From Marmoricola endophyticus (lineage in GTDB: Bacteria; Actinomycetota; Actinomycetes; Propionibacteriales; Nocardioidaceae), in contig NZ_BMKQ01000001.1 of NCBI RefSeq assembly GCF_014644415.1, positions 2,047,556-2,111,555 on the forward strand: 64,000 bases of DNA, given 5' to 3'. Under the pieces are notes generated by a model. The model was not told the DNA's origin, did no database searches, and was given only the letters and a program-made list of their open reading frames with translations. This document shows positions 18,177 to 32,899 of this stretch, in pieces (position 1 is the first letter of the stretch; each line of letters starts with the position of its first letter). Made by a program: the position numbers and the translations under genes.

Positions 18177-18962
18177 TCAGGCCGAGTGGTCCCGGAGCCG
18201 TGTCAGCAGGTCGCGGGAGGCCGCGGCGACCAGGGGGTCCACGCCCAGCTCGTGCAGCATGTCCACCGCCGCGGCCATCTCCTCGCGGCGGCGCGTGGCG
18301 TGGACCCGGGAGCCGTCCACGAGCCGCTGCACGGTCGCGGGACCGGACTCCTCGAGCTCGTCGGCGATGTTCTCGACCAGCCAGTCCCGGCAGCCGGCGG
18401 CCTCGGCGGCCTCCAGCGCCTCGACCACCGCCGCGGCCAGACCCTTGAAGAAGACGCTGCGCAGCAGCTTGCGCTGCGCCGCCTCGCCCGCGCCTCCGCG
18501 CTGGAGGTCGACCCGCGCCCCGAGCGGCGCGAGGAGCCGCTGGACCCGGTCCGCGGCGTCCCCGCTGGCCAGCAGCGGGACGGCGAGACCCTTGCCGGGG
18601 ACCGGCGCCATGATCGCCACGTCGGAGAAGTGCGCGCCGGCCGACGAGGCGGTGGCGGCCAGGCGGCGCTTGAGGCCCGGCGACCCGGTGTTGAGGTCGG
18701 CCCAGACGGCACCGGGGGCGAGCCCCGGAAGCCCGGCGGCCAGGGCCTCCTCGGCCGCCGAGGCGCTGTTGACGCTGAGCACCAGGTCGGATCCCGTGGC
18801 CGCGTCCCGTTCGTCGTCGCATCCCGTGGTGCCCTGCGGCGGGGCCACTGCGGGGTCGTACGCACGGACCAGCGCGCCGGCCGCGACCAGGTCGGCGGCG
18901 AACGCCGAGCCGGCCTCTCCGAGCCCGAGGAGAGCGACGACGGTGGGTCCGGGGTGAGTCAT
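18177..18962 (-). CDS. NAD(P)-dependent dehydrogenase, 6-phosphogluconate-DH-like with DUF1932 C-terminal domain
   Basis: 261 aa. Rossmann fingerprint ALLGLGEAGSAFA at the N-terminus, with the conserved NTGSPGLKRRL and VAIMAPVPG stretches of beta-hydroxyacid dehydrogenases. The C-terminal helices (KLLRSVFFKGLAAAVVEAL) are DUF1932-like; the Lys is a candidate catalytic residue. Oxidises a hydroxy acid or reduces a keto acid of unknown identity. Divergent from the GntR regulator over a 105-base spacer that holds an operator, so it is probably part of the same regulon as the catabolic operon. Confidence 0.8.
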   Translation of the reverse strand: MTHPGPTVVALLGLGEAGSAFAADLVAAGALVRAYDPAVAPPQGTTGCDDERDAATGSDLVLSVNSASAAEEALAAGLPGLAPGAVWADLNTGSPGLKRRLAATASSAGAHFSDVAIMAPVPGKGLAVPLLASGDAADRVQRLLAPLGARVDLQRGGAGEAAQRKLLRSVFFKGLAAAVVEALEAAEAAGCRDWLVENIADELEESGPATVQRLVDGSRVHATRRREEMAAAVDMLHELGVDPLVAAASRDLLTRLRDHSA

Positions 18963-19034
18963 CGCAGTCCCTTCGAGCGAGTCTCGCCGTGGTCGTCGAC
19001 GCCGACGGCCGGACGCACTCTGCTAGCCTTCGCC

Positions 19035-19055
19035 AATATTGTCAACAATTTTGTC
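19035..19055. promoter_or_regulatory. GntR operator 1 (ATTGT-N2-ACAAT palindrome)
   Basis: Palindrome ATTGTCAACAAT at 19038-19049 inside AATATTGTCAACAATTTTGT. It matches operator 2 at 18 of 20 bases and fits the known FadR/FCD-type pattern TNGTNNNACNA. It sits 18 bases before the regulator start, so autorepression is likely; the divergent dehydrogenase may share it. Confidence 0.75.
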
Positions 19056-19067
19056 TGGAGAGGTTCT

Positions 19068-19742
19068 ATGGTCGACTCCTCGCCCGTCGTCAGCCATGGC
19101 CCCACCGCGCGCCCCGCTCGACTACCGGTGCCGGCCGCCATCCGCGAGGGGATCCTGCGAGGTGAGTTCGTCCCGGGACAGCGCCTGGTCGAGGCCGACC
19201 TCTCCGAGCAGTTCGAGGCGAGCCGTGCCGCCGTCCGCTCGGCGCTCGTCGAGCTCGCCACCGAGGGACTGGTCGAGCGGGTGGCGAATCGTGGCGCGCG
19301 CGTGCGCGTCGTCCCGCTGGAGGAGGCAATAGAGATCTACGAGGTCCGGATGGTCCTCGAGGCGCTGTGCGCCGCCAAGGCGGCCGAGCGAGCAGACGAC
19401 GCAGAGGTCGCCGAGCTGCGCGGGATCGGCACCGACATGGAGGAGGCGGTGGCAGCCGGCGAGGTGATGGTGTACCGCCAGCTGAACGAGCGTCTCCACC
19501 GTCGGATCCGGGAGATGAGCGGTCAGCGCACCGCCGGCAGCGTGCTCGAGCGCCTGCGCGCCCAGAGCGTGCGCCAGCAGTTCAAGGTCGCCACGACACC
19601 CGGGCGACCCAAGGTGTCGCTCCCCGAGCACCTGGCGATCATCGACGCGATCTGCCGCCACGACGCCGTCGCCGCGGACGCGGCGTTGCGCGAGCACCTG
19701 CGCAGCGTCATGGACGCCATGCGCAGCAGCCACGCCGGTTGA
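19068..19742 (+). CDS. GntR-family regulator, FadR/FCD subgroup
   Basis: 224 aa. N-terminal winged helix (about residues 15-80: AAIREGILRGEFVPGQRL, LSEQFEASRAAVRSAL, LVERVANRGARV) and an all-helical FCD ligand domain (about 90-215) with metal/ligand residues in YEVRMVLEAL, LNERLHRRI and LPEHLAIIDAI. ATG at 19068 has GGAGAGG about 5 bases upstream. It should repress its own gene and the operon starting at 19882, as both carry the same palindrome. The likely inducer is an organic acid from the pathway. Confidence 0.88.
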   Translation: MVDSSPVVSHGPTARPARLPVPAAIREGILRGEFVPGQRLVEADLSEQFEASRAAVRSALVELATEGLVERVANRGARVRVVPLEEAIEIYEVRMVLEALCAAKAAERADDAEVAELRGIGTDMEEAVAAGEVMVYRQLNERLHRRIREMSGQRTAGSVLERLRAQSVRQQFKVATTPGRPKVSLPEHLAIIDAICRHDAVAADAALREHLRSVMDAMRSSHAG

Positions 19743-19830
19743 GACCGGTCCCCGACGACGGTCGCGGTCCTGCGACGACCGGTTAGGAGAAATCTTCGGC
19801 CAGCCCTTGTGATCGCCGACACGTGTGCGC

Positions 19831-19851
19831 AATATTGTGAACAATCTTGTT
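19831..19851. promoter_or_regulatory. GntR operator 2 upstream of the catabolic operon
   Basis: Palindrome ATTGTGAACAAT at 19834-19845 within AATATTGTGAACAATCTTGT, nearly identical to operator 1. It lies 36 bases before the DUF6282 gene start, a position suited to blocking polymerase. Confidence 0.75.
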
Positions 19852-19881
19852 CCACACAGTTGTCGACAAAGCGAGGAAGCC

Positions 19882-20814
19882 ATGACCGACGCTCAGCACC
19901 CCCGCCCCTCCGAGCGAGCCCGTGAGCTGGTCCGCGGCGGCTTCGACGTCCACGTGCACGTGGCGCCGGACGTGATGGAGCGGCGGATCGCCGACTCCGA
20001 CCTGGCGCACACGTTCGCCGAGGCCGGCCTGGGCGGCTTCGTGCTCAAGAGCCACTACGTGCCGACCACCGAGCGTGCCGCGGTGGTCAACACCCTCGGC
20101 GGCGCCCGCGCGGTCGGCGCGGTGACCCTGAACGCCGCCGTCGGCGGGATGAACCCCATCGCCGTCGAGATCGCCGCTCGCGGCGGAGCCGGCTTCGTCT
20201 GGATGCCGACGGTCGACAGCGCGAACCAGCGTGCCTGCCTGGCCAGCGACCCCGAGGGGGCGAAGCCACCGATGTGGGCCCAGCTGCAGGACGACCTCCG
20301 CAGGGCCGGGATGGCCGCCGACCCGGTGCCGGTGCTGGACGCGGACGGCACGCTGCTGCCACGGACCCGGCAGGTGCTGCAGGTGATCGCCACCCACGAC
20401 CTGGTGCTGGCCACCGGACACCTGCACGGCGACGAGATCTCCGCGGTCGTCGAGGCCGCCGTCGCCACGGGCGTACGCCGGATCGTGGTCACCCACCCCG
20501 AGTTCACCTCCCAGCGCCTGGACTCCGAGAAGCAGCAGGAGCTCGCGGCCCAGGGCGCGCTGCTCGAGCGCTGCTACACCACACCGCTGACCGGGAAGGT
20601 CGGGTGGGAGACCTGGTTCCGCCACATCCGCGAGGCCGGGCCGGAGAGCTCGGTGGTCTCCAGCGACCTCGGCCAGCCCTTCAACCCGCCCGTCGAGGAC
20701 GGGCTCGGACTCGCCGCGGACCGGCTCCTCGAGCACGGTTTCAGCGACGACGAGGTCCGCACGATGACCGTCACCAACACCCGGGCCCTGGTCGGCGCCG
20801 ACCCGCTGCCCTGA
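19882..20814 (+). CDS. DUF6282 family protein (amidohydrolase-like)
   Basis: 310 aa. Metal-binding-like motifs FDVHVHVAPDVM near residue 22, LKSHYVP, TGHLHGDE and VVTHPEFTSQ are in the order expected of a metal-dependent hydrolase TIM barrel. The family is described as amidohydrolase-related but has no proven reaction that I know of. GAGGAAG lies just upstream of the ATG at 19882. First gene of a six-gene run on the plus strand. By context it could hydrolyse a lactone or similar cyclic intermediate, as LigI does in protocatechuate 4,5-cleavage; this is a guess from position. Confidence 0.72.
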   Translation: MTDAQHPRPSERARELVRGGFDVHVHVAPDVMERRIADSDLAHTFAEAGLGGFVLKSHYVPTTERAAVVNTLGGARAVGAVTLNAAVGGMNPIAVEIAARGGAGFVWMPTVDSANQRACLASDPEGAKPPMWAQLQDDLRRAGMAADPVPVLDADGTLLPRTRQVLQVIATHDLVLATGHLHGDEISAVVEAAVATGVRRIVVTHPEFTSQRLDSEKQQELAAQGALLERCYTTPLTGKVGWETWFRHIREAGPESSVVSSDLGQPFNPPVEDGLGLAADRLLEHGFSDDEVRTMTVTNTRALVGADPLP

Positions 20815-20847
20815 CCGCCCGTACGACACCCAGCCGGAGGACACCCG

Positions 20848-21582
20848 ATGCCGACCGACCAGACCGACCGCCCCCGCCACCTCCTCGTGGTCGGCGCGCA
20901 CAGCGCCGACTTCGTCTGGCGCTCGGCGGGCGCCGTCGCCACACACACCACCGCCGGCGGGACCGCCACCGTCGTGGCCCTCTCCTACGGCGAGCGCGGT
21001 GAGTCCGGCGCCCTGTGGAAGCAGGAGGGCCAGACCGAGCAGCGGGTCAAGGAGATCCGCCACGAGGAGGCCAGCGGGGCCGCCGCCGTGCTGGGCGCCG
21101 ACTTCGTCGCCCTCGACCTCGGCGACTACCCGCTCGCGGTCGACGACGAGGCTCTGGACCGGTTGGTCGCGCTGATGCGCGAGCAACGGCCGGACGTCGT
21201 GGTCACCCACCCCGGGGAGGACCCGTTCAACCCGGACCACCCCGTGGCGCACGCCGCCGTGGCCCGGGCCCGGCTGCTGACCAGCGGAGCCGGTGTGGCC
21301 AGCGCCTTCGAGACGGTCCCGCCCACCGAGTTCCTGGCCTTCGAACCCCACCAGCCCGAGCTGTGCGGCTTCGTGCCGAGCTTCTTCCTCGACATCACCG
21401 ACGTGTTCGACCGCAAGGTCGAGGCGATGGAGCACATGTCGGCGCAGGTCTACCTGCAGGAGTACTACGCGCAGCGGGCGGAGCACCGCGGCAACCACGC
21501 CCGCAAGGTCACCGGCGACGCCACGATCCGCCAGGCCGAGGCCTTCCAGCGGATCGTCCCGAACGTGGCGAGGGCGCTGTGA
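20848..21582 (+). CDS. PIG-L-fold hydratase, GalB-like (4-oxalomesaconate hydratase candidate)
   Basis: 244 aa. PIG-L/LmbE fold, but the usual AHPDDE metal motif is replaced by AHSADFVWRS, as I recall for GalB of Pseudomonas putida. Further GalB-like stretches are LSYGERGESGALWKQ, FDLGDYPL-type LDLGDYPLAV, HPGEDPFNPDH and FEPHQPE. GalB hydrates 4-oxalomesaconate to 4-carboxy-4-hydroxy-2-oxoadipate. The neighbouring aldolase is the enzyme that would use this product, which supports the call. A deacetylase of the same fold is the alternative. Overlaps the next gene by GTGA. Confidence 0.7.
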   Translation: MPTDQTDRPRHLLVVGAHSADFVWRSAGAVATHTTAGGTATVVALSYGERGESGALWKQEGQTEQRVKEIRHEEASGAAAVLGADFVALDLGDYPLAVDDEALDRLVALMREQRPDVVVTHPGEDPFNPDHPVAHAAVARARLLTSGAGVASAFETVPPTEFLAFEPHQPELCGFVPSFFLDITDVFDRKVEAMEHMSAQVYLQEYYAQRAEHRGNHARKVTGDATIRQAEAFQRIVPNVARAL

Positions 21583-22244
21583 GCGGGCCGCCCGTCGGGA
21601 CCGACGTCGTCGCCGAGCTCGGTGCGGCCGGGGTCGCCACCGTGTACGAGGCCGCCGGCCGCTCCGGGCTGCTGGAGGAGCAGTGGCAGCAGGTCACGCC
21701 CGGTCGGCGGGTCGCCGGCCGTGCGTGCACCGTGCTGTGCGGGCCCGGGGACAACCGCGCCGTCCACGAGGCCCTCGCGCACGTGCGCCCCGGTGACGTG
21801 CTCGTGGTCACGATGGACGAGCCGGCGCCGGCCGCCGTGGTCGGCGACCTGCTCGCCACCCAGGCTGTGGCCCAGGGCGTGGTGGGTCTCCTGATCGACG
21901 CCGCGGTCCGCGACACCGCCGAGCTGGGACAGATGCCGCTGACCGTGCACGCCCGCTGGCGCAACGCCCGCGGCGCGACCAAGGCGCACCGCGGCGCGGT
22001 CGACGTGCCCGTGGTCGTGGGTGGCACCCGGGTCGCGCCGGGCGACGTCGTGGTCCTCGACGACGACGGCGCCGCAGTCGTCCCCTCCGGCGAGGCGGGC
22101 CGCGTCCTCGACGCGGTGCGCGCACGTCTGCAGAAGGAGTCGGCGCTGCGCGCGCGATGGGCGAAGGGTGAGCTCAGCTACGACGCGTACGGCCTGCGGG
22201 CCGAGGACGAGGCAGCACCGACACCCGAAGGGAGCCCGGCATGA
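21579..22244 (+). CDS. RraA-like aldolase, 4-carboxy-4-hydroxy-2-oxoadipate aldolase (GalC/LigK) candidate
   Basis: 221 aa. RraA/HMG-aldolase fold with LLIDAAVRDTAELGQMPL (Asp/Arg substrate and metal contacts), VRPGDVLVVTMDE and VAPGDVVVLDDDGAAVVP. In class II pyruvate aldolases of this family the enzyme splits 4-carboxy-4-hydroxy-2-oxoadipate to pyruvate and oxaloacetate and often decarboxylates oxaloacetate. GTG at 21579 overlaps the preceding stop and the gene's stop overlaps the ABC gene start (ATGA), so translation is coupled on both sides. Confidence 0.75.
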   Translation: MSGPPVGTDVVAELGAAGVATVYEAAGRSGLLEEQWQQVTPGRRVAGRACTVLCGPGDNRAVHEALAHVRPGDVLVVTMDEPAPAAVVGDLLATQAVAQGVVGLLIDAAVRDTAELGQMPLTVHARWRNARGATKAHRGAVDVPVVVGGTRVAPGDVVVLDDDGAAVVPSGEAGRVLDAVRARLQKESALRARWAKGELSYDAYGLRAEDEAAPTPEGSPA

Positions 22245-23005
22245 GCACGCTGCTCAGCACGGACGGACTGACCAAGCGGTTCGTCAAGAAGGACAGCGCG
22301 ACCGTGGCGCTGCGCGACTTCCACCTCGAGGTCGAGGAGGGGACGTTCGTCTCCGTCCTCGGCCGCAGCGGCTGCGGCAAGTCCACGATGCTCAACCTGC
22401 TCGCGGGTCTGACGACACCCTCGGCGGGCGAGGTCCGCTACCAGGGCAGGGTGCTGCGCGGCCCCCAGACCGACATCGGCTACCTCACCCAGTCCGACAC
22501 CTTGATGCCGTGGCGCGACGTGCAGCGCAACGTCGAGATGCCGATGGAGCTCCAGGGCACCCCGGCGAAGGAGCGGACCGAGGCAGCCCGCGACCTCATC
22601 GACCGCGTCGGCCTGGCCGGCTTCGAGCACCACTACCCGCGCGAGCTGTCCGGGGGCATGCGGCGCCGCGCCAGCCTGGCCCGGATGCTCGCAGGCCGGC
22701 CCTCGACCCTGCTCATGGACGAGCCCTTCGGCGCCCTCGACGCCCAGCTGCGCCACGAGCTGCAGGTCGAGCTCCTCCGGCTGTGGTCGGGCAGCGAGCA
22801 GACGGTCGTCTTCGTCACCCACGACATCGAGGAGGCCGTGCTGCTGGGAGACCGTGTCGTGGTCCTCGGTGGGCTGGGACGGGTGATCGTCGACCGCCGC
22901 GTCGACCTCCCGCGGCCGCGCAACGCCGACGACCTGCAGGTCGATCCCGAGTACGTCTCGATCCACCGAGAGCTCGCCGCCGCCCTGAAGGGAGCAGCAT
23001 CATGA
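22241..23005 (+). CDS. ABC transporter ATP-binding protein, nitrate/sulfonate/taurine type
   Basis: 254 aa. Walker A LGRSGCGKSTMLN, Q-loop in YLTQSDTLMPWRDV, signature LSGGMRRRASLARML, Walker B LLMDEPFGALD and H-loop FVTHDIEEAV. The MPWRD Q-loop is typical of the SsuB/TauB/NrtD group. Powers the importer formed with the next two genes. ATGA overlaps on both sides. Confidence 0.9.
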   Translation: MSTLLSTDGLTKRFVKKDSATVALRDFHLEVEEGTFVSVLGRSGCGKSTMLNLLAGLTTPSAGEVRYQGRVLRGPQTDIGYLTQSDTLMPWRDVQRNVEMPMELQGTPAKERTEAARDLIDRVGLAGFEHHYPRELSGGMRRRASLARMLAGRPSTLLMDEPFGALDAQLRHELQVELLRLWSGSEQTVVFVTHDIEEAVLLGDRVVVLGGLGRVIVDRRVDLPRPRNADDLQVDPEYVSIHRELAAALKGAAS

Positions 23006-23859
23006 CCGCCGCACCAGTGGAGGACACCACCACGGGGGACGCGAGCACCGCCCCTGCCGGCGCCGTCCGCGAGCACGTCGACCGCTCCTGGTGGGACCGC
23101 TACGGCGACGCCACCGTGATCTGGTCCTCGCGGCTGCTGCTGCTGGTCGTCGTGCTGGTGCTGTGGCAGGTCGCGGCAGGTCGGTGGGTCGACGACACGT
23201 TCATCAGCCGGCCCACCGACATCGTCGCCCGGCTCGGCGACTGGTGGCGCGACGGGACGCTGGCCGACAACACCTGGATCACCGTCCAGGAGATCGTGCT
23301 GGGCTTCGTCATCGGCGCGGCCGCCGGGGCGCTCGGCGGGTACGTCCTCGGCGCCGCACGCCAGGTCTACCGGGTGCTGGACCCGTTCATCATGGCGCTC
23401 TACTCCATCCCCAAGGTCGCGCTCGCGCCGCTGTTCATCGTCTGGATCGGGATCGGGATGGACATGAAGGTGCTGCTTGCCGCGGTCACGGTGTTCTTCC
23501 TGGTCTTCCTCAACACCGCGGCAGCGGTCCGCGAGGTCGACCGCGGCCTGGTCGACGCAGTGCGCCTGATGGGCGGCGGACGCCGGGAGATCGCGACCAA
23601 GGTGATCCTGCCCGCCTCGATGGCCGGGTTCCTCACCGGCCTCAAGGTCTCCGTCCCGTACGCCCTGATCGGTGCGGTCATCGGCGAGCTCGTCGCCTCC
23701 AACCGCGGCCTCGGCTACCTGATCAACGACTCCGCCGCCCAGTTCGACACCGCCGGCGTCTTCGCCGCGCTCGTCGTGCTCAGCGTGATCGCCGGCGTGC
23801 TGAACCTGCTCGTCGGCCTGCTCGACAAGCGGGTGAACCGCTGGAAGCCCCTCGACTGA
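23002..23859 (+). CDS. ABC transporter permease, nitrate/sulfonate/taurine type
   Basis: 285 aa. About six membrane segments; the EAA-like coupling loop lies in DAVRLMGGGRREIATKVILPASM. A 35-residue hydrophilic N-terminus precedes the first helix. ATG at 23002 overlaps the ATPase stop. Membrane channel of the importer; the substrate is inferred to be an aromatic-derived or other organic acid because of the adjacent catabolic genes. Confidence 0.9.
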   Translation: MTAAPVEDTTTGDASTAPAGAVREHVDRSWWDRYGDATVIWSSRLLLLVVVLVLWQVAAGRWVDDTFISRPTDIVARLGDWWRDGTLADNTWITVQEIVLGFVIGAAAGALGGYVLGAARQVYRVLDPFIMALYSIPKVALAPLFIVWIGIGMDMKVLLAAVTVFFLVFLNTAAAVREVDRGLVDAVRLMGGGRREIATKVILPASMAGFLTGLKVSVPYALIGAVIGELVASNRGLGYLINDSAAQFDTAGVFAALVVLSVIAGVLNLLVGLLDKRVNRWKPLD

Positions 23860-23898
23860 CCCTCTCCACCCGCCCACTCGCACGATCGGAGCACCACC

Positions 23899-24921
23899 AT
23901 GCAGCCCACCCGACGCGGCCTCCTGAAGTCGCTCGCCGTCGCCCCCGTCCTGCTCTCGCCCACGCTGCTCGCGGCGTGCGGTGCGGGTTCGAGCTCGAAG
24001 GCCGGCACCCTCAACGTGGGCCAGATCAGCGACTCCGTCGCGTTCTTCCCGCTCTTCATCGCCGAGAAGCAGGGCTTCTTCACGGACGAGAAGCTCAGCC
24101 TCGGCGAGCGTCCACGGCTCGGGACCGGCGCCAAGGTGGCCGCGGCGCTGAAGTCCGGCAGCATCGACCTCGGGGGCGGCGTCATGACCGACGCCCTCAA
24201 CCTCGCCGAGATCGACGACCAGGCTCGGCTGACCACCTCGTTGATCAGCGCCTACTACGTCGACATCGTGGTCGGAGGATCCGCCGGCAAGGGGGGTGGC
24301 TCCCTCGAGGAGCGCGTCCTCGCGCTGAAGGGGAAGAAGATCGGGATCACCGGGCCCGGTAGCGGGACCGAGGCACTGGTGACGTACCTCTTCGAGCAGG
24401 CCGGCCTCGACCCGGCCAAGGACGCCACGTTGGTCAATCTCGGTGCAGTCGCCACCGCCGCGGTCGGCGCGCTCAAGTCCGGGCGCGTCGACGCGCTGTC
24501 GTTCTTCCAGCCGATCGGCCAGCAGGCCGAGGCCGCCGGGGTGGGGAGCATCTACATCTCCCCCGCCGCCGGCGACGTCCCCTCCCTGGACGGCGACCTG
24601 CACGGCGTGGTCTTCAGCCGGCAGAGCATCCTCGACGACAAGGCCGACGAGGTCGCGGCGTTCCAGACCGCGATCGGGCGGGCGCTCGGGGTGATCCGCG
24701 GAGACGGCTCCCGCGTGCGGGACCTGCTCGGCCAGTACCTCGACGGCACCCCCGACGCCGCCCTCGACAAGCTCGTGCCGATCCTGCAGAAGGAGACGGC
24801 GACGACGCCCGCGGTGGTCGAGTCGCAGTACGAGGTCGCGCGGACCTTCCACGTGCAGAGCGGTCTGGTCGACGCGGCGCCGTCCTACTCCACCCTCGTG
24901 CCCTCGCGGTTCCGCGCCTGA
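23899..24921 (+). CDS. ABC transporter substrate-binding lipoprotein, SsuA/TauA type
   Basis: 340 aa. The N-terminus PTRRGLLKSLAVAPVLL carries an Arg-Arg pair of Tat type and ends in lipobox LAAC, so it should be exported folded and anchored by lipid. The body (ISDSVAFFPLFIAEKQGFF, GSIDLGGGVMTDALNL, GKKIGITGPGSGTEALV) is NMT1/THI5-like, as in sulfonate and aromatic-acid binding proteins. Completes the importer with the two preceding genes. Confidence 0.88.
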   Translation: MQPTRRGLLKSLAVAPVLLSPTLLAACGAGSSSKAGTLNVGQISDSVAFFPLFIAEKQGFFTDEKLSLGERPRLGTGAKVAAALKSGSIDLGGGVMTDALNLAEIDDQARLTTSLISAYYVDIVVGGSAGKGGGSLEERVLALKGKKIGITGPGSGTEALVTYLFEQAGLDPAKDATLVNLGAVATAAVGALKSGRVDALSFFQPIGQQAEAAGVGSIYISPAAGDVPSLDGDLHGVVFSRQSILDDKADEVAAFQTAIGRALGVIRGDGSRVRDLLGQYLDGTPDAALDKLVPILQKETATTPAVVESQYEVARTFHVQSGLVDAAPSYSTLVPSRFRA

Positions 24922-26764: not shown

Positions 26765-28102
26765 GTGCCACTACCCACTCAGGAACGCCGCCTCGTCACC
26801 GCCATCCCCGGCCCCCGGTCCCAGGAGCTCCAGCAGCAGCGCGACGCCGCCCTGCCGGTCGGCCTCGGGATGACGATGCCGGTCTTCGTCGACCACGCCG
26901 GTGGCGGGATCCTGGTCGACGTCGACGGCAACCAGATCGTCGACCTCGCCTCCGGCATCGCGGTGACCAGCGTCGGCGCGGCCGACCCCGAGGTCGCCCG
27001 GCGGGTCTCCGAGCAGGTCGAGCGGTTCACGCACACGTGCTTCCTCGTCACCGAGTACGCCGGGTTCGTCGACGTCGCGAACGCCCTCAACCGGCTCACC
27101 CCGGGCGACCACGCGAAGAAGACCGCCCTGTTCTCCACCGGGGCCGAGGCGGTGGAGAACGCGGTCAAGATCGCGCGGGTCCACACCGGCCGGCCGGCGG
27201 TGGTCGTGCTCGGGCACGCGTACCACGGTCGCAGCCTGCTGACGATGTCGATGACGGCGAAGAACGTGCCGTACAAGGAGGGCTTCGGGCCGTTCGCGCC
27301 GGAGGTCTACCGCGCGCCGTCGCCGTACCCCTTCCGCTGGCCGGGCGGGCCCGAGGCGTCCGGCGAGGAGGCGCTGGCGGCGCTGAAGGACCTGGTCGTC
27401 TCGCAGATCGGTGCCCACCACGTCGCGGCGATCGTGGCCGAGCCGATCCAGGGCGAGGGCGGCTTCATCGTGCCGCCGCCCCGCTACCTGGCCGGCGTCG
27501 CCGACTTCGCTCGCGAGCACGGCATGGTCTTCGTCGCCGACGAGATCCAGACCGGGCTGGCCCGCACCGGCGCGATGTTCGCCTGCGAGCACGAGGGCGT
27601 CGTCCCCGACCTGGTCACCACCGCCAAGGCGCTCGGCGGCGGGCTGCCGCTGGCCGCGGTGACCGGGCGTGCGGAGATCATGGACGCGGTCCCCGCCGGC
27701 GGCCTGGGCGGGACGTACGCCGGCAACCCCGTCGCCTGCGCCGCGGCCCTCGGCGCGCTGGACACCATCGAGAAGCAGGACCTCGTGGGCCGGGCCCGCG
27801 AGATCGAGGCCCGGGTGCTGCCCCGACTCTCCGCCCTCGTCGGCCCGGACTCCGTCGTCGGCGAGGTCCGCGGCCGTGGCGCGATGCTGGCGCTGGAGTT
27901 CGTCCGCCCCGGCACCACCGAGCCCGCCCCGGACGTCGCGAAGGCTGTGGCCGCCCGCTGCCACGCCGAGGGCGTGCTGGTGCTCGTCTGCGGGACGTAC
28001 GGCAACGTGATCCGGCTGCTCCCGCCGCTGGTCATCGGCGACGAGCTCCTCGACGACGGGCTCTCGGTGCTCGAGTCCGCGATCGCTGCCGAGAACGGCT
28101 GA
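26765..28102 (+). CDS. gabT: Class III aminotransferase: 4-aminobutyrate / 5-aminovalerate transaminase
   Basis: 445 aa. PLP-binding Lys near residue 288 in TTAKALGGGLPLAAV, ADEIQTGLARTG, and the SGIAVTSVG and STGAEAVENAVKIAR stretches match GabT. With lysine 2-monooxygenase and 5-aminovaleramidase encoded 0.6 to 3 kb away, it may act mainly as 5-aminovalerate transaminase (DavT), giving glutarate semialdehyde; GABA is the other likely substrate. GTG at 26765 is preferred; another GTG at 26756 is in frame. The promoter must lie within or just beyond the MITE-like element, which ends 10 bases upstream. Confidence 0.88.
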   Translation: MPLPTQERRLVTAIPGPRSQELQQQRDAALPVGLGMTMPVFVDHAGGGILVDVDGNQIVDLASGIAVTSVGAADPEVARRVSEQVERFTHTCFLVTEYAGFVDVANALNRLTPGDHAKKTALFSTGAEAVENAVKIARVHTGRPAVVVLGHAYHGRSLLTMSMTAKNVPYKEGFGPFAPEVYRAPSPYPFRWPGGPEASGEEALAALKDLVVSQIGAHHVAAIVAEPIQGEGGFIVPPPRYLAGVADFAREHGMVFVADEIQTGLARTGAMFACEHEGVVPDLVTTAKALGGGLPLAAVTGRAEIMDAVPAGGLGGTYAGNPVACAAALGALDTIEKQDLVGRAREIEARVLPRLSALVGPDSVVGEVRGRGAMLALEFVRPGTTEPAPDVAKAVAARCHAEGVLVLVCGTYGNVIRLLPPLVIGDELLDDGLSVLESAIAAENG

Positions 28103-28110
28103 GCCGCCAG

Positions 28111-28710
28111 ATGACGCGCGGCGCGGCCCCGCGCCGCCCGGGGCACTCGCTCGTTCCCGCACGCCGCGCGGTCGCGGCGCTGGCCACTCTCGCTGCCCTC
28201 GGCCTCGCAGCGTGCAGCCCGACGTCGGGCACCGACGGGCCCGACGAGCCCGACGAGCACAGCACGAAGACGATGGAGCAGGCCGTGGGCGACATACAGC
28301 GGATGCGCCAGGACATGGTCGAGGCACTCGACGCGAAGCTCGAGAGGCGCAGCTGGGGTCTCGACCCCAGCAAGGAGCCCACGATCGATCGCTCCGGCTG
28401 CTCGGGCATCTCCGACTCCGAGACCGGAGAGGTGGCCTACCTCCCGATCTGGGGACCCGACCGGGCCTATCCGCGCGACGAGTGGCGACAGGCGACGACG
28501 ATCGTCGCCGAGGTCGGCAGGAGGTACGGCTTCGACAAGGTCGGCACGACGATCGACAACGCCGAGATCCTCTCCATCGACGGTCGCGCGCCCGACGGAG
28601 GGACCTACACCTTCGGGCTGGGAGCCAACGGCGCTCTCAGCATCGCCACCGGCTGCTACGAGTGGAAGAAGACACCCCGGGGCACGCCGCCGGACCTCCC
28701 GTCGGAGTAG
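28111..28710 (+). CDS. Hypothetical lipoprotein
   Basis: 199 aa. A basic, Arg-rich start, a hydrophobic stretch and lipobox GLAAC (near residue 33) indicate a lipid-anchored secreted protein. The mature part has two Cys (RSGCSGIS and ATGCYEWKK) that could form a disulfide. Weak similarity of layout to mycobacterial LppA-like lipoproteins; not certain. Starts 8 bases after gabT and is convergent with davA (3-base gap). Confidence 0.72.
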   Translation: MTRGAAPRRPGHSLVPARRAVAALATLAALGLAACSPTSGTDGPDEPDEHSTKTMEQAVGDIQRMRQDMVEALDAKLERRSWGLDPSKEPTIDRSGCSGISDSETGEVAYLPIWGPDRAYPRDEWRQATTIVAEVGRRYGFDKVGTTIDNAEILSIDGRAPDGGTYTFGLGANGALSIATGCYEWKKTPRGTPPDLPSE

Positions 28711-28713
28711 TGC

Positions 28714-29478
28714 TCACCACAGGTCGGTACGACGGTCCCGCAGGTAGTGCGGAGTGCGGCGCACCGGCTCGGTCGGCGCGGCCACGAGCAGCGTCTCCTC
28801 CTCGGGCCCGGCGGTGAGGGCCTCGCCGTCGGGGCCGGCGAGGACGCTGAGCCCGGCGTACGTCGTCCGGCCCTCGCCGCCGACGAAGTTCGCGTAGGCG
28901 ACGCGCACGCCGTTCTCGTACGCGCGGGCCGGGACCAGCAGCGTCGAGACGGGCTCGTAGCCGACCGGGTTGGCGGTCGGGACGAGGACCAGCGCCGCCC
29001 CGGCGAGCGCCGCGGCGCGGACCGACTCGGGGAACTCGACGTCGAAGCAGATCAGCCCGGACACCGGGGTCCCGCGCAGGTCCCCGACCTGCGGCGGCGT
29101 CGGCCCGGGGGTGAACCGGTCACGGTCGATCGAGGCGAACAGGTGCATCTTGCGGTGGCGTACGACGACCGTGTCGCCGTCGAGCACCTGCATCGCGTTG
29201 AAGACGCACGAGCCCTCGCGCTCGGGGTAGCCGTACGCCACCGCGACGCCCGTGCGCCGGCTGATCTCGGCGACCGCGCGGGCGGTCGGGCCGTCGTACT
29301 GCTCGGCGAGCCGCTCGGTGTCGGCGGGTGAGATCTCGTAGCCGGTGGTGAACAGCTCAGGGGTGAGCAGCACGTCGGCTCCGGACTCCCGCGCCTGCGC
29401 GCACGCCGCCTCCAGCCGCGCGAGGTTGCCCTCCACCTGGAGCGGGTCCGAGCGGCACTGCCAGAGAGCGACCTTCAC
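28714..29478 (-). CDS. davA: 5-aminovaleramidase (nitrilase superfamily), DavA-like
   Basis: 254 aa. The Glu-Lys-Cys triad of the nitrilase fold is visible: TPELFTTGY, RHRKMHLF and GLICFDVEFPE. Taken alone it would be a generic carbon-nitrogen hydrolase. It overlaps by 4 bases the gene for a close DavB homologue, and DavA of Pseudomonas is the same fold and size. Predicted reaction: 5-aminovaleramide plus water to 5-aminovalerate and ammonia. Confidence 0.8.
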   Translation of the reverse strand: MKVALWQCRSDPLQVEGNLARLEAACAQARESGADVLLTPELFTTGYEISPADTERLAEQYDGPTARAVAEISRRTGVAVAYGYPEREGSCVFNAMQVLDGDTVVVRHRKMHLFASIDRDRFTPGPTPPQVGDLRGTPVSGLICFDVEFPESVRAAALAGAALVLVPTANPVGYEPVSTLLVPARAYENGVRVAYANFVGGEGRTTYAGLSVLAGPDGEALTAGPEEETLLVAAPTEPVRRTPHYLRDRRTDLW

Positions 29479-31151
29479 GGCAGTGCCACCGGCGCCAGGT
29501 CGTCGAACCGGTCACCCGGCCCTGGGTTCTCCGGGTGGCAGCGCCCGCCGAGGTGGGTCATCACGCCCCAGACCGCGTTGAGCGCGGTCTGCACCGCGCC
29601 CTCGGCCCAGGCCGGCGTGAACGACACGTCGTCGCCGGCGAGGAAGATGCCGCGCTCGGACGCGGGCAGGTCGCGCTGCACGAAGTGCGTGTACATCCGG
29701 TGGTTGTAGCGGTAGTGCCCCGGCAGCGCGCCCTTGAACGCACCGAGGAAGTGCGGGTCGTCCTCCCAGGAGACCGTGACCGGGTCGCCGACGATGCGGC
29801 TGCGGATGTCGACGCCGGGGTAGATCTTGGCGAGCGCCGCGAGCGCCAGCTCGACGCGCCGCTCGACCGGGTGCGGCAGCATCTTCAGGCTGTCGGACAT
29901 CCAGGAGTACGACAGGCAGATCACCGCCGGGCGGTCCGGCCCGTTGTCGAAGAGGTACGTCCCGCGCGTGAGCCGGTCCGTCAGCGTCATGCTCATCACG
30001 TGCCGTCCGGTCTCGGGGTCGACGTCCTTCCAGAACGGCTGGTCGACCATCACGAACGTCTTCGTCGACTGCATGTAGCGGGTCCGGTCCAGCGCCATCC
30101 ACAGCGACTGCGAGAACAGCTCCTCGTCGACCTCGACCTCGGTGGTCAGCAGCCAGCTCTGGCAGGTGGCGAGCACCGCGTCGTGGCGGCGCGTCACGCC
30201 CCAGCGGTCCCGCACGTCGAAGCGGCCCTCCTCGGCCCGCGAGATCGCCGCGGCCGCGGGGAGCGTGGCGTTGGCGTGCAGCGAGGCGAGGGTCGTCCCC
30301 GCGGGCCACGGGCTGTCCTCGCGCACCGGCAGCGTCCACAGCCCGCGCGGCAGCTGCTCGGACCCGCCGTCGATCAGCCGCTGGTCGGTGTCGCAGTTGG
30401 TGAGGACGACGCGGAGGATCTCCAGCATCGAGTTCGGGAAGTCGGAGTCCCAGCCGCCGGTGCCGAAGCCGACGACACCGAACAGCTCGCGGTACTCGAA
30501 CGGCAGCGACGAGAACGCCTGCGAGCTGGCCACGAAGTCGTAGAAGGTCCGCTCGTCCCACTCGGCGACCAGCGTGTCCCACCGCTGCTTGAGCGCCGCG
30601 ACGTCGCGCCGCCGGATGGCCTCCTGGAGCTCCTCGAAGCCGACCGCGCGCAGCGCCTCGTCCCAGGCGCCGGACATCGTCGAGAACAGCTCGGGCAGGT
30701 CCTCGAGGCTCTCGCCGTAGTACGTCTCGCCGCCGATGTCGATCACCGTGCTCCCGGCCGCCGGGGTGAGCGGGTTGGGGAAGGGGCGGCTGTGCAGGCC
30801 GAGCCGGTCGGCGTAGTGGAAGAACGTGGAGCCCGACACCGGGAACCGCATCCCGCCCAGCTCGGCGGTCACCCCGCGCGCGGCCTCGAACTCGTGGGTC
30901 CGCAGCCGGCCGCCGATCCGGGTCGCCTCGTAGATCACCGGACGTGCGCCGAGATTCATCAGCTCCCAGGCCGCGACCATCCCCGACAGCCCCGCCCCCA
31001 CCACGGCGACCTCCGCGCCGTGCGCCTCGGGCGGCAGCTCGCCGAGCCCGTGGGGGCTGGTCACCCAGTCGTCGTACGCGAACGGGAAGTCGGGACCGAA
31101 GATCGTCACCGGGCCGTCCGCCCGCGTCTCGTCGGGAAGCAGGATGGTCAT
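29475..31151 (-). CDS. davB: L-lysine 2-monooxygenase, DavB-like flavoprotein
   Basis: 558 aa, equal to the family. FAD-binding VVGAGLSGMVAAWELMNLG near residue 50, then GGMRFPVSGSTFFHY, FGTGGWDSDFPNSMLEIL, TLTDRLTRGTYLFDNG, CLSYSWMSDSLKMLPHPVE and AGDDVSFTPAWAEGAVQTAL. From memory these stretches are nearly the same in P. putida DavB and clearly closer than in tryptophan 2-monooxygenase. Reaction: L-lysine plus O2 to 5-aminovaleramide, CO2 and water. Upstream gene of the davB-davA pair; its 5' flank is a tandem repeat region. Confidence 0.88.
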   Translation of the reverse strand: MTILLPDETRADGPVTIFGPDFPFAYDDWVTSPHGLGELPPEAHGAEVAVVGAGLSGMVAAWELMNLGARPVIYEATRIGGRLRTHEFEAARGVTAELGGMRFPVSGSTFFHYADRLGLHSRPFPNPLTPAAGSTVIDIGGETYYGESLEDLPELFSTMSGAWDEALRAVGFEELQEAIRRRDVAALKQRWDTLVAEWDERTFYDFVASSQAFSSLPFEYRELFGVVGFGTGGWDSDFPNSMLEILRVVLTNCDTDQRLIDGGSEQLPRGLWTLPVREDSPWPAGTTLASLHANATLPAAAAISRAEEGRFDVRDRWGVTRRHDAVLATCQSWLLTTEVEVDEELFSQSLWMALDRTRYMQSTKTFVMVDQPFWKDVDPETGRHVMSMTLTDRLTRGTYLFDNGPDRPAVICLSYSWMSDSLKMLPHPVERRVELALAALAKIYPGVDIRSRIVGDPVTVSWEDDPHFLGAFKGALPGHYRYNHRMYTHFVQRDLPASERGIFLAGDDVSFTPAWAEGAVQTALNAVWGVMTHLGGRCHPENPGPGDRFDDLAPVALP

Positions 31152-31379: not shown

Positions 31380-31919
31380 TCAGTCGATCGGGCGCAGCTC
31401 GTCGGCGTACGACAGCGAGACCCGCTTGAGCAGGCCGCGCCGGTCCACGCGGTACTGACCCATCCGCCACAGCGGCGGGCTGTACGCGTGGACCGAGACC
31501 GAGCCGGGCACCGCACCGTTGAGCCGGTGGATGTGGTCGGTCTCGAACGAGAACGTCGTCCCCGCCGCGACCCGGGTCTCGCGTGCACCCTGGGCGAGGG
31601 TCAGGTTGTTCTCGACCAGCTCGCCGCTGACCACGCTGACCGCGCCGCAGGAGACGTCGTGGTCGTGCCAGCCGGTGTCGTTCTGCGGGGTCCAGCACAG
31701 CAGCCAGACGTCGACGTGCGCGTCACGGTGCAGCGAGGCGAAGACCCGCTCGTCGTCGTCGAAGCCGACCAGGTGGTCCCAGTCCTGCGGGCGAGCGGCG
31801 ACGGTCCGGGCCAGCCGGGCGAGCTCGTCGGGAGCGAGGTCGCGGTCCTGCGGCAGGCCGAGGTCCTCCAGGACGTCGGTGACGCGGGTGCGCGTGGGGG
31901 TCAGCTGGCGTACGCCCAT
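31380..31919 (-). CDS. Cysteine dioxygenase family protein
   Basis: 179 aa. Cupin with iron ligands in GWHDHDVS and TDHIHRL. Such bacterial cysteine dioxygenases of about 180-200 aa oxidise L-cysteine to cysteine sulfinate or, in variants, other thiols. ATG start at 31919 lies within the end of the upstream amidohydrolase gene (19-base overlap), so the two are one transcript. The stop borders the tandem repeat. Confidence 0.83.
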   Translation of the reverse strand: MGVRQLTPTRTRVTDVLEDLGLPQDRDLAPDELARLARTVAARPQDWDHLVGFDDDERVFASLHRDAHVDVWLLCWTPQNDTGWHDHDVSCGAVSVVSGELVENNLTLAQGARETRVAAGTTFSFETDHIHRLNGAVPGSVSVHAYSPPLWRMGQYRVDRRGLLKRVSLSYADELRPID

Positions 31920-32899
31920 CGTGGGGCTCCTTCCGGTGAGACCGACGAGGTCGGGTCCGGCGTCCCGAGCAGGCGCCGGGGGTTGTCGGCGCGGACCGCC
32001 CGCTCCCCCGCCTCGCCGAGGACGGTGCCGAGCGGCGTCGGTACGGCGTACGGACGGTCCGAGCCGAGGACGAGGGCGTCGATGCCGAGCACCCGCACGA
32101 CCGCGTCCAGGGACCGGGGCCCGTGCCCGCTGGAGTCGACGAAGATCCCGGGGTCGACGGGCTCGGGCGACCCACCGCGGACCAGGTGTCGCTCCTCGTG
32201 CAGCGGCGCGAGCCCGGCCGCCGCCGCGAACACCAGCCGCAGCTGCGGGTGGCTCGCGCGGCCGACGTACGCCCGCCAGGCCCACCAGGCGGCGTGCAGC
32301 TGCTGGCCGTACCCGACCACCGGTGCCCACCACTCGGGGACCGGTGCGTCCCCGGCGGCGCGGCGCACCGGCCCCGGGTGGATCAGCACCGGCCGGTCGG
32401 CGGACTCGGCGACACTCAGCAGCGGCGCGACCCGCTCCCACGCGCCGGGCGTCGAGAGCGTGGTCGCGGGAAGCTGGAGCCCGACGAAGCGCGGCTCGGC
32501 CAGCAGTCGACCGAGCTCCGCCGGGTCGGGGTCGAGCTCCGGGACCGACGCCCAGGCGCGGAAGTGGTCGGGGAGGCCGCGGACGCCGCGGTGCCAGGCG
32601 TCGATCAGGCGGGACGCCTCGGGCCTGGGCAGCGCCTCGACCCCGAGCGGCGACGAGAGGCTGACGCAGGCGGTACCGGTGCCGTCGGCGAGATCGGTGG
32701 CCACGCGCCCGGAGGCGTCGTGCGCGGCCGGGTCGACCTCGTACTCGGGCTCGCCGGCGGTGTGCAGCGTCCAGCCGCGCAGGTACGGCGGCGCCGCTCT
32801 CGCGCGCAGCCGGTCGAGGAGGTCCTCGGGCCACAGGTGCTGGTGGACGTCGGTCGCACCGGGCTCGCCGGCAGACGTGGCAAGGGGCATGACGGACAC
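31901..32899 (-). CDS. Amidohydrolase-family (ACMSD-like) metal-dependent hydrolase/decarboxylase
   Basis: 332 aa. An N-terminal metal-site motif DVHQHLWPEDLL, HPGPV in the middle, and the late LVLGSDRPYAVP with its Asp fit the amidohydrolase_2 group. The substrate is unknown. It heads a two-gene unit with cysteine dioxygenase. ATG at 32899; ATG at 32890 is possible. The upstream strip (32900-32945) is AT-rich and should hold the promoter. Confidence 0.75.
   Translation of the reverse strand: MSVMPLATSAGEPGATDVHQHLWPEDLLDRLRARAAPPYLRGWTLHTAGEPEYEVDPAAHDASGRVATDLADGTGTACVSLSSPLGVEALPRPEASRLIDAWHRGVRGLPDHFRAWASVPELDPDPAELGRLLAEPRFVGLQLPATTLSTPGAWERVAPLLSVAESADRPVLIHPGPVRRAAGDAPVPEWWAPVVGYGQQLHAAWWAWRAYVGRASHPQLRLVFAAAAGLAPLHEERHLVRGGSPEPVDPGIFVDSSGHGPRSLDAVVRVLGIDALVLGSDRPYAVPTPLGTVLGEAGERAVRADNPRRLLGTPDPTSSVSPEGAPRWAYAS

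Follow-up and report, generated by a model that had tools for sequence, protein, structure and literature searches.

A conserved island of Marmoricola endophyticus with an importer, DUF6282 and DUF1932 proteins: a probable new entry into the 4-oxalomesaconate trunk

This analysis concerns a putative catabolic island of Marmoricola endophyticus, located at positions 18177-24921 of a 64-kb window, the whole stretch of DNA that was analysed and to which all positions refer. Eight genes and two operators were confirmed. The gene set, the operators and the tight gene overlaps described in an earlier sequence-only reading were all present, as follows.

18177-18962, minus strand: DUF1932 NAD-binding dehydrogenase of the 6-phosphogluconate / beta-hydroxyacid dehydrogenase kind (PF09130, PF03446)
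19038-19049, no strand: operator 1, ATTGTCAACAAT, between the dehydrogenase and GntR genes; motif kept in related loci
19068-19742, plus strand: GntR/FCD regulator (PF07729, 93.5 bits; PF00392, 56.1 bits)
19834-19845, no strand: operator 2, ATTGTGAACAAT, upstream of DUF6282
19860-19869, no strand: possible third site, palindrome TTGTCGACAA, matching the 10-base core only, between operator 2 and the DUF6282 start
19882-20814, plus strand: DUF6282 protein with an amidohydrolase-superfamily fold (PF19799, AlphaFold2 model and fold searches)
20848-21582, plus strand: predicted GalB-like 4-oxalomesaconate (OMA) hydratase of the PIG-L family (5cgz match, 44% identity to GalB)
21579-22244, plus strand: predicted GalC-like 4-carboxy-4-hydroxy-2-oxoadipate (CHA) aldolase of the RraA fold (PRK09262, 3noj, catalytic residues)
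22241-23005, plus strand: ABC importer ATPase (PF00005, 104.6 bits)
23002-23859, plus strand: ABC importer permease (PF00528, 99.9 bits)
23899-24921, plus strand: NMT1-type substrate-binding lipoprotein (PF13379, 50.6 bits; PF09084, 50.2 bits)

The dehydrogenase gene was divergent from the rest of the island. According to the coordinates, overlaps of 4 bases joined the PIG-L and RraA-like genes, the RraA-like and ATPase genes, and the ATPase and permease genes. The two operators were near-identical palindromes, and ATTGTNNACAAT occurred exactly twice in the 64 kb (19038-19049 and 19834-19845), with a mean of 0.00 in 100 shuffles. The island is probably co-regulated. A twin arginine and a lipobox were read by eye in the lipoprotein sequence, which scored above threshold for two of three Pfam NMT1 models and below both NCBIfam models that it matched (SsuA_fam, TIGR01728, 44.4 versus 163.5; TRAP_TAXI, 30.1 versus 84.35). 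The ATPase reached no NCBIfam cut-off among the best 25 of its 184 matches. Of the 'SsuABC-type' importer proposed earlier, the ABC importer was retained, and the SsuABC label proved loose.

The closest solved relative of the PIG-L protein was 5cgz (E 1.2e-57), which we take to be the 4-oxalomesaconate hydratase GalB of Pseudomonas putida. The next match, the best of the deacetylase type, followed at 2.1e-07, and identity to 2ixd was 27%. The window protein and 5cgz shared the motif AHSAD, the deacetylase counterpart of which is AHPDD, and alanine or glycine occupied the position of the AHPDD aspartate in 12 of 12 aligned rows. This aspartate is the general base of the deacetylases, and AHSAD removes it. 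In the PIG-L tree, the window protein belonged to a clade of 11 rows on a starred branch (support 99/100). Members of this clade were 43-47% identical to GalB, compared with 51-58% for gallate-type rows. GalB and LigJ act on KCH, an isomer of OMA, as named in the available text of PMC12314914.

The RraA-like protein exceeded the cut-off of the NCBIfam model PRK09262 (202.5 versus 179 bits) and was closest to the solved CHA aldolase 3noj of P. putida (E 5.3e-45), with an identity of 46%; gallate-type rows reached 53-59%. The residues Arg123, Asp124 and Glu199, named for CHA aldolase in the available text of PMC5065237, were kept as R, D and E at the aligned columns. In the RraA tree, the window clade (8 rows, support 92/90) had as its sister the clade that contains 3noj (13 rows, 92/96). 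Apart from these two clades lay 2pcn and a second RraA-like protein encoded in the genome (L002). The placing of the window protein is of moderate firmness, as no starred branch holds its row. Both assignments of the sequence-only reading, GalB-like and GalC-like, were thus borne out, with GalB and the CHA aldolase, not sugar deacetylases and the RNase E inhibitor group, as closest solved relatives.

Related loci were collected from named genomes, in which 222 DUF6282 relatives were found and the best 80 kept, so that the counts describe the closest ones. Genes were called with a simple codon-usage caller trained on ten window genes, which truncates some starts; the genes of locus L028 were read apart from the caller, L054 was mostly uncalled and many loci were cut by contig ends. 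Among the 80 loci, gene clusters contained DUF6282 in 79, permease and ATPase in 64 each, GntR in 53, the binding protein in 52, RraA-like in 41, the dehydrogenase in 40 and PIG-L in 35, followed by PrpF-type (11), LigJ-type (9) and VOC dioxygenase (3) genes. The complete set of eight window families was present in 22 of the 80 loci, though not always as a contiguous run. Bearers of the island include the soil actinomycete Streptomyces radiopugnans (L034). In a sample of the phylum, 18 of 296 genomes were above the DUF6282 cut-off, and eight of these, the window genome included, were assigned to the island type from their identity and neighbouring genes.

An OMA hydratase was detected in 50/50 DUF6282 genomes. 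The GalB type was present in 38 (match at 1e-40) and the LigJ type in 22 (1e-60), including all 12 genomes without the GalB type; some LigJ-type matches were weaker, such as that of genome G328 with near 520 bits compared with 600-700 for the closest. For 17 of the 49 named-locus genomes the fetched DUF6282 locus held no hydratase, and all 17 had one elsewhere. The phylum base rate of GalB-type or LigJ-type hydratases was 18/296, with either hydratase in 8/8 island genomes versus 10/288 others (Fisher 3e-11, an optimistic value, as the genomes are related). On this co-occurrence the island therefore appears tied to OMA, which supports the link to the OMA level drawn in the sequence-only reading. 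In nine loci an amidohydrolase of the LigJ type was present and PIG-L was missing. This amidohydrolase had a match to PF04909 but none, at 1e-10, to any NCBIfam model, and its label as LigJ-like derives from a motif and from the OMA tautomerase and aldolase genes next to it. In L060, the PrpF-type neighbour exceeded the cut-off of the OMA tautomerase model (463.8 versus 440). Among named loci without a VOC dioxygenase, PrpF-type genes accompanied LigJ in 8/8 and PIG-L in 2/33. Locus L028, from another class of the phylum, showed a run of GntR, DUF6282, PIG-L, RraA and dehydrogenase genes ending in a thiamine pyrophosphate (TPP) enzyme. Its PIG-L protein was 56% identical to GalB and its RraA-like protein 58% identical to the P. 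putida aldolase; these identities support OMA/CHA as the predicted endpoint.

The DUF6282 protein matched PF19799 with 213.7 bits (cut-off 26.8). It had no PDB sequence match, LigI included; the rest of the genome was not searched for LigI. The AlphaFold2 model was built on 33 sequences and reached a pLDDT of 94.3 and a pTM of 0.93, replacing a poor model from 6 sequences (pLDDT 75.8). Foldseek matched the model to a phosphotriesterase (PTE)-like lactonase, dipeptidases and dihydroorotases, with LigI (4dia) at rank 13 (E 1.0e-05). In VIA-align, Z ranged from 18.6 to 20.2 with 231 to 261 residues aligned among the 50 matches listed, and the partners were dihydroorotase, PTE homologues, TatD and dipeptidases. 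D22, H24, H26, K56, H58, H180, H205, E229 and D262 were invariant in the 33 sequences; these His, Asp, Lys and Glu residues fit a metal site, with putative roles as ligands. By its model, DUF6282 clearly belongs to the amidohydrolase superfamily and is placed at superfamily level only; the predicted fold fits hydrolytic ring opening without proving it. In the searchable part of the literature, no paper mentioning DUF6282 was found, and mentions of DUF1932 were found only in venom-allergen and autoantigen papers. Divergent DUF6282 genes in L197, L198 and L201 adjoined genes resembling molybdenum hydroxylase subunits, as read from sequence, with an aminotransferase-like gene also close by in L198 and L201. 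These neighbourhoods perhaps serve N-heterocycle breakdown.

The dehydrogenase exceeded the cut-offs of PF09130 (DUF1932; 45.3 bits, cut-off 25) and PF03446 (35.8 bits, cut-off 21), and its best PDB match was 3qsg (E 6.5e-27). With at most 34 candidates evaluated in each genome, the DUF1932 profile (E 1e-30) matched in 57/57 island-type genomes (the 50 and a further 7 from the phylum sample) and in 0/20 controls, namely 10 OMA hydratase genomes without DUF6282 and 10 with divergent DUF6282. Because of this distribution, DUF6282 and the DUF1932 dehydrogenase are, as judged from co-occurrence, strict partners that work as a pair.

In 39 of 80 loci (the window and 79 named ones), the operator core TTGTNNACAA was located upstream of DUF6282, at most 350 bp from its called start, with a background of 2 matches in approximately 570 kb lying more than 6 kb away. 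It was also found in 10 of 15 loci taken from the surroundings of VOC genes in DUF6282 genomes, in 4/4 loci from genomes without DUF6282 (L203-L206) and in 0/6 divergent DUF6282 loci (L197-L202). The core preceded both DUF6282 and DesA/LigM-like O-demethylase genes in L027, L031 and L032, and O-demethylase genes only in L026 and L030, which suggests one regulon. It was found before DUF6282 as well as before GalB/PrpF/dioxygenase clusters. Given its presence in VOC loci and in loci lacking DUF6282, the core is therefore a motif of a wider gallate/OMA network and not specific to the island.

The genome of the window (3.66 Mb, listed as 99.99% complete) contained no match to PF02900, the LigB family of GalA- and LigAB-type dioxygenases, and its best catechol 2,3-dioxygenase (C23O)-type match reached only E 0.0027 and 17.1 bits; cupin-type ring-cleaving enzymes were not searched. 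On these values a hidden dioxygenase of either type was rejected. The OMA tautomerase (GalD/LigU, NF033377) had no match at E 0.001. Among the 50 DUF6282 genomes, 13 were without a PF02900 match and eight (G000, the window genome, and G299, G307, G334, G336, G337, G338 and G343) were without both PF02900 and C23O-type matches (1e-30). A strong VOC dioxygenase (at least 485 bits) was present in 16 of the 50, and in G318 another was split into two pieces. The earlier statement that there is no ring-cleavage dioxygenase thus stood for LigB-family and C23O-type enzymes in the window genome, but not for all versions of the island, since type I (VOC) enzymes occur in some, in the locus or elsewhere.

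Further clues to the substrate came from L051, L063 and L074, in which the DUF6282-importer genes are followed in the same run by tcuA, tcuB and the gene of a TPP enzyme, as in tricarballylate utilisation (TcuAB). The L063 pair, the only one scanned, was above the NCBIfam cut-offs (TcuA 599.2/369, TcuB 258.2/246.6). The TPP gene was present alone in L064, and the TPP enzyme of L028 was 39-41% identical to those of these four loci. By gene content, the TcuAB/TPP runs point to a tricarboxylate. In contrast to the TcuAB system, no tcuAB was seen among the gene clusters of the window or of the 77 remaining named loci. No paper linking tricarballylate with oxalomesaconate, or gallate with a PIG-L hydratase, was found in the searchable part of the literature. 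Chelidonic acid was set aside as a substrate on its carbon skeleton, by general chemistry.

We interpret the locus as a substrate-inducible catabolic island in which an importer and a DUF6282/DUF1932 entry module feed a GalB/GalC trunk, with a probability of roughly 0.6. The parts, trunk families, operators and co-occurrence are read from sequence, and the steps below are predictions from them. The ABC importer with its NMT1-type lipoprotein would bring in a polycarboxylate or its lactone. DUF6282 would act as an amidohydrolase-type hydrolase, most likely opening the lactone, and the NAD-linked DUF1932 dehydrogenase would oxidise the product to OMA or its isomer KCH. The favoured order would be lactone hydrolysis to a 2-hydroxy-4-carboxy-hexenedioate, followed by oxidation at C2, because this explains both the constant presence of the dehydrogenase and a genome without OMA tautomerase. 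The GalB-like enzyme would then hydrate the product and the GalC-like enzyme split it to pyruvate and oxaloacetate. The GntR/FCD regulator would control both divergent transcripts by binding the two ATTGTNNACAAT operators. The leading guess for the imported substrate is 2-pyrone-4,6-dicarboxylate (PDC) or a reduced relative.

Several points weigh against this interpretation. The RraA-like protein stayed under the narrower model TIGR02798 ligK_PcmE (182.7 versus 304.5 bits), and the window PIG-L and RraA-like proteins lie in clades of their own beside the gallate type, so that by phylogeny their substrates could differ. One of the 38 GalB matches (G315) consisted of two fragments at contig ends, and TcuAB was found in only 3 of the 80 named loci. 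If the product of DUF6282 were OMA and not KCH, the absence of the tautomerase here would be a gap. All reactions are predicted. The compared genomes are related, so that the counts do not represent independent events. Searches of whole genomes scored 7 to 9 candidates per genome (phylum sample) or 34 (dehydrogenase), which makes absences less firm than presences. Finally, in other loci the DUF6282-dehydrogenase pair and a type I dioxygenase belong to a single operon, which suits an aromatic source.

This last point leads to the alternative that survives best, a non-homologous protocatechuate 4,5-cleavage route, which we regard as possible, though distinctly less probable than the interpretation above. 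In the known route (LigAB-LigC-LigI-LigU-LigJ-LigK), a dehydrogenase and an amidohydrolase-fold enzyme likewise precede the OMA hydratase and CHA aldolase; an actinobacterial example is pcaDECAB of Pseudarthrobacter Sphe3, according to the available text of PMC8431788. DUF1932 would replace LigC (ring-fission semialdehyde to PDC) and DUF6282 would replace LigI (PDC to OMA), with a dioxygenase that is type I or, in some genomes, lost or of another kind. The pair would supply just those two steps by which the protocatechuate route differs from the gallate route, and the two genes travel together. LigI was also among the fold matches of DUF6282, a resemblance at fold level only. A C23O-like dioxygenase was found in the DUF6282/dehydrogenase locus of L026, L027, L029-L032, L040, L080 and L109, and DesA/LigM-like O-demethylase genes in six of these (L026, L027, L030-L032 and L040; not L029, L080 and L109). 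In L026, L027 and L029-L032, the DUF6282, PIG-L, RraA-like, VOC dioxygenase and dehydrogenase genes were consecutive. Scores for the catechol 2,3-dioxygenase model were 320.6 (L026), 318.2 (L040) and 280.9 (L109) with a cut-off of 320.2, and those for the LigM model 772.7 (L040) and 562.9 (L026) with a cut-off of 580. However, the eight genomes without LigB-family and C23O-type matches have kept the dehydrogenase. The island also differs from protocatechuate 4,5-cleavage in that the window genome has no LigAB-type match and the hydratase is of the GalB and not the LigJ type. The entry pair may belong to an aromatic route in one set of genomes and to the importer route in another.

In a second and slightly less probable alternative, PDC itself would be imported from plant litter or other microbes and DUF6282 would be a PDC hydrolase. 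PDC amounts to 0.1-2% in Rosoideae genera and to 1-1.7% of strawberry leaf dry matter (available text of PMC9415522), and its conversion to OMA is one hydrolysis (available text of PMC12314914), for which no dioxygenase is needed. However, this leaves no role for the strictly kept dehydrogenase, nor for TcuAB in the extended runs.

An ordinary gallate pathway with its dioxygenase elsewhere in the genome is very unlikely. It would account for the hydratase and aldolase, which resemble those of the P. putida route (GalA-GalD-GalB-GalC; 5cgz, 3noj), and for the strong VOC dioxygenases found elsewhere in 11 of 17 genomes without a hydratase in the DUF6282 locus versus 5 of 32 otherwise. Unlike that route, however, the window genome has no GalA-type or OMA tautomerase match despite its completeness, and the island adds the importer, DUF6282 and DUF1932. 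Moreover, four loci from one genus of the phylum sample (L203-L206; genomes G182, G161, G246 and G128) contained VOC/C23O-like, PrpF and RraA-like clusters, three with PIG-L, together with GntR and MFS-like genes. Their genomes have neither DUF6282 nor the DUF1932 dehydrogenase, so a module of this sort can do without the pair. By gene content they are probable stand-alone gallate modules in which a type I dioxygenase takes the place of the LigB-type enzyme. The reading of PIG-L as a sugar or thiol deacetylase and of the RraA-like protein as a regulator, in an island concerned with something else, drew on weak matches (BshB1 67.5 bits, cut-off 182.5; RraA 81.1, cut-off 136) and was rejected on the lead of GalB over the deacetylases, the identities, AHSAD in place of AHPDD, the aldolase model cut-off passed and the kept aldolase residues.

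Outside the island, genes for a class III aminotransferase, a carbon-nitrogen hydrolase and a flavin amine oxidase were located close together at 26765-31151 of the window, possibly for polyamine or gamma-aminobutyrate catabolism. A protein of 332 residues encoded at 31901-32899, with DVHQHLW near its start, had no Pfam match at E 0.001.

Returning to the importer-fed island, it is real and conserved, and it probably opens a new way into a known trunk. We give even odds to the wider proposal that DUF6282 and DUF1932 form an undescribed, dioxygenase-independent gateway by which many Actinomycetota feed an imported lactone or tricarboxylate, such as PDC from plant litter or a reduced relative of PDC, into the OMA/CHA trunk. 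This trunk is known from aromatic ring cleavage, and its intermediates are those through which lignin and tannin are degraded. Two domains of unknown function would thereby gain a joint, testable role, and a class of growth substrate is predicted for an island seen in many Actinomycetota. The proposal also bears on lignin valorisation, in which PDC is a wanted product.

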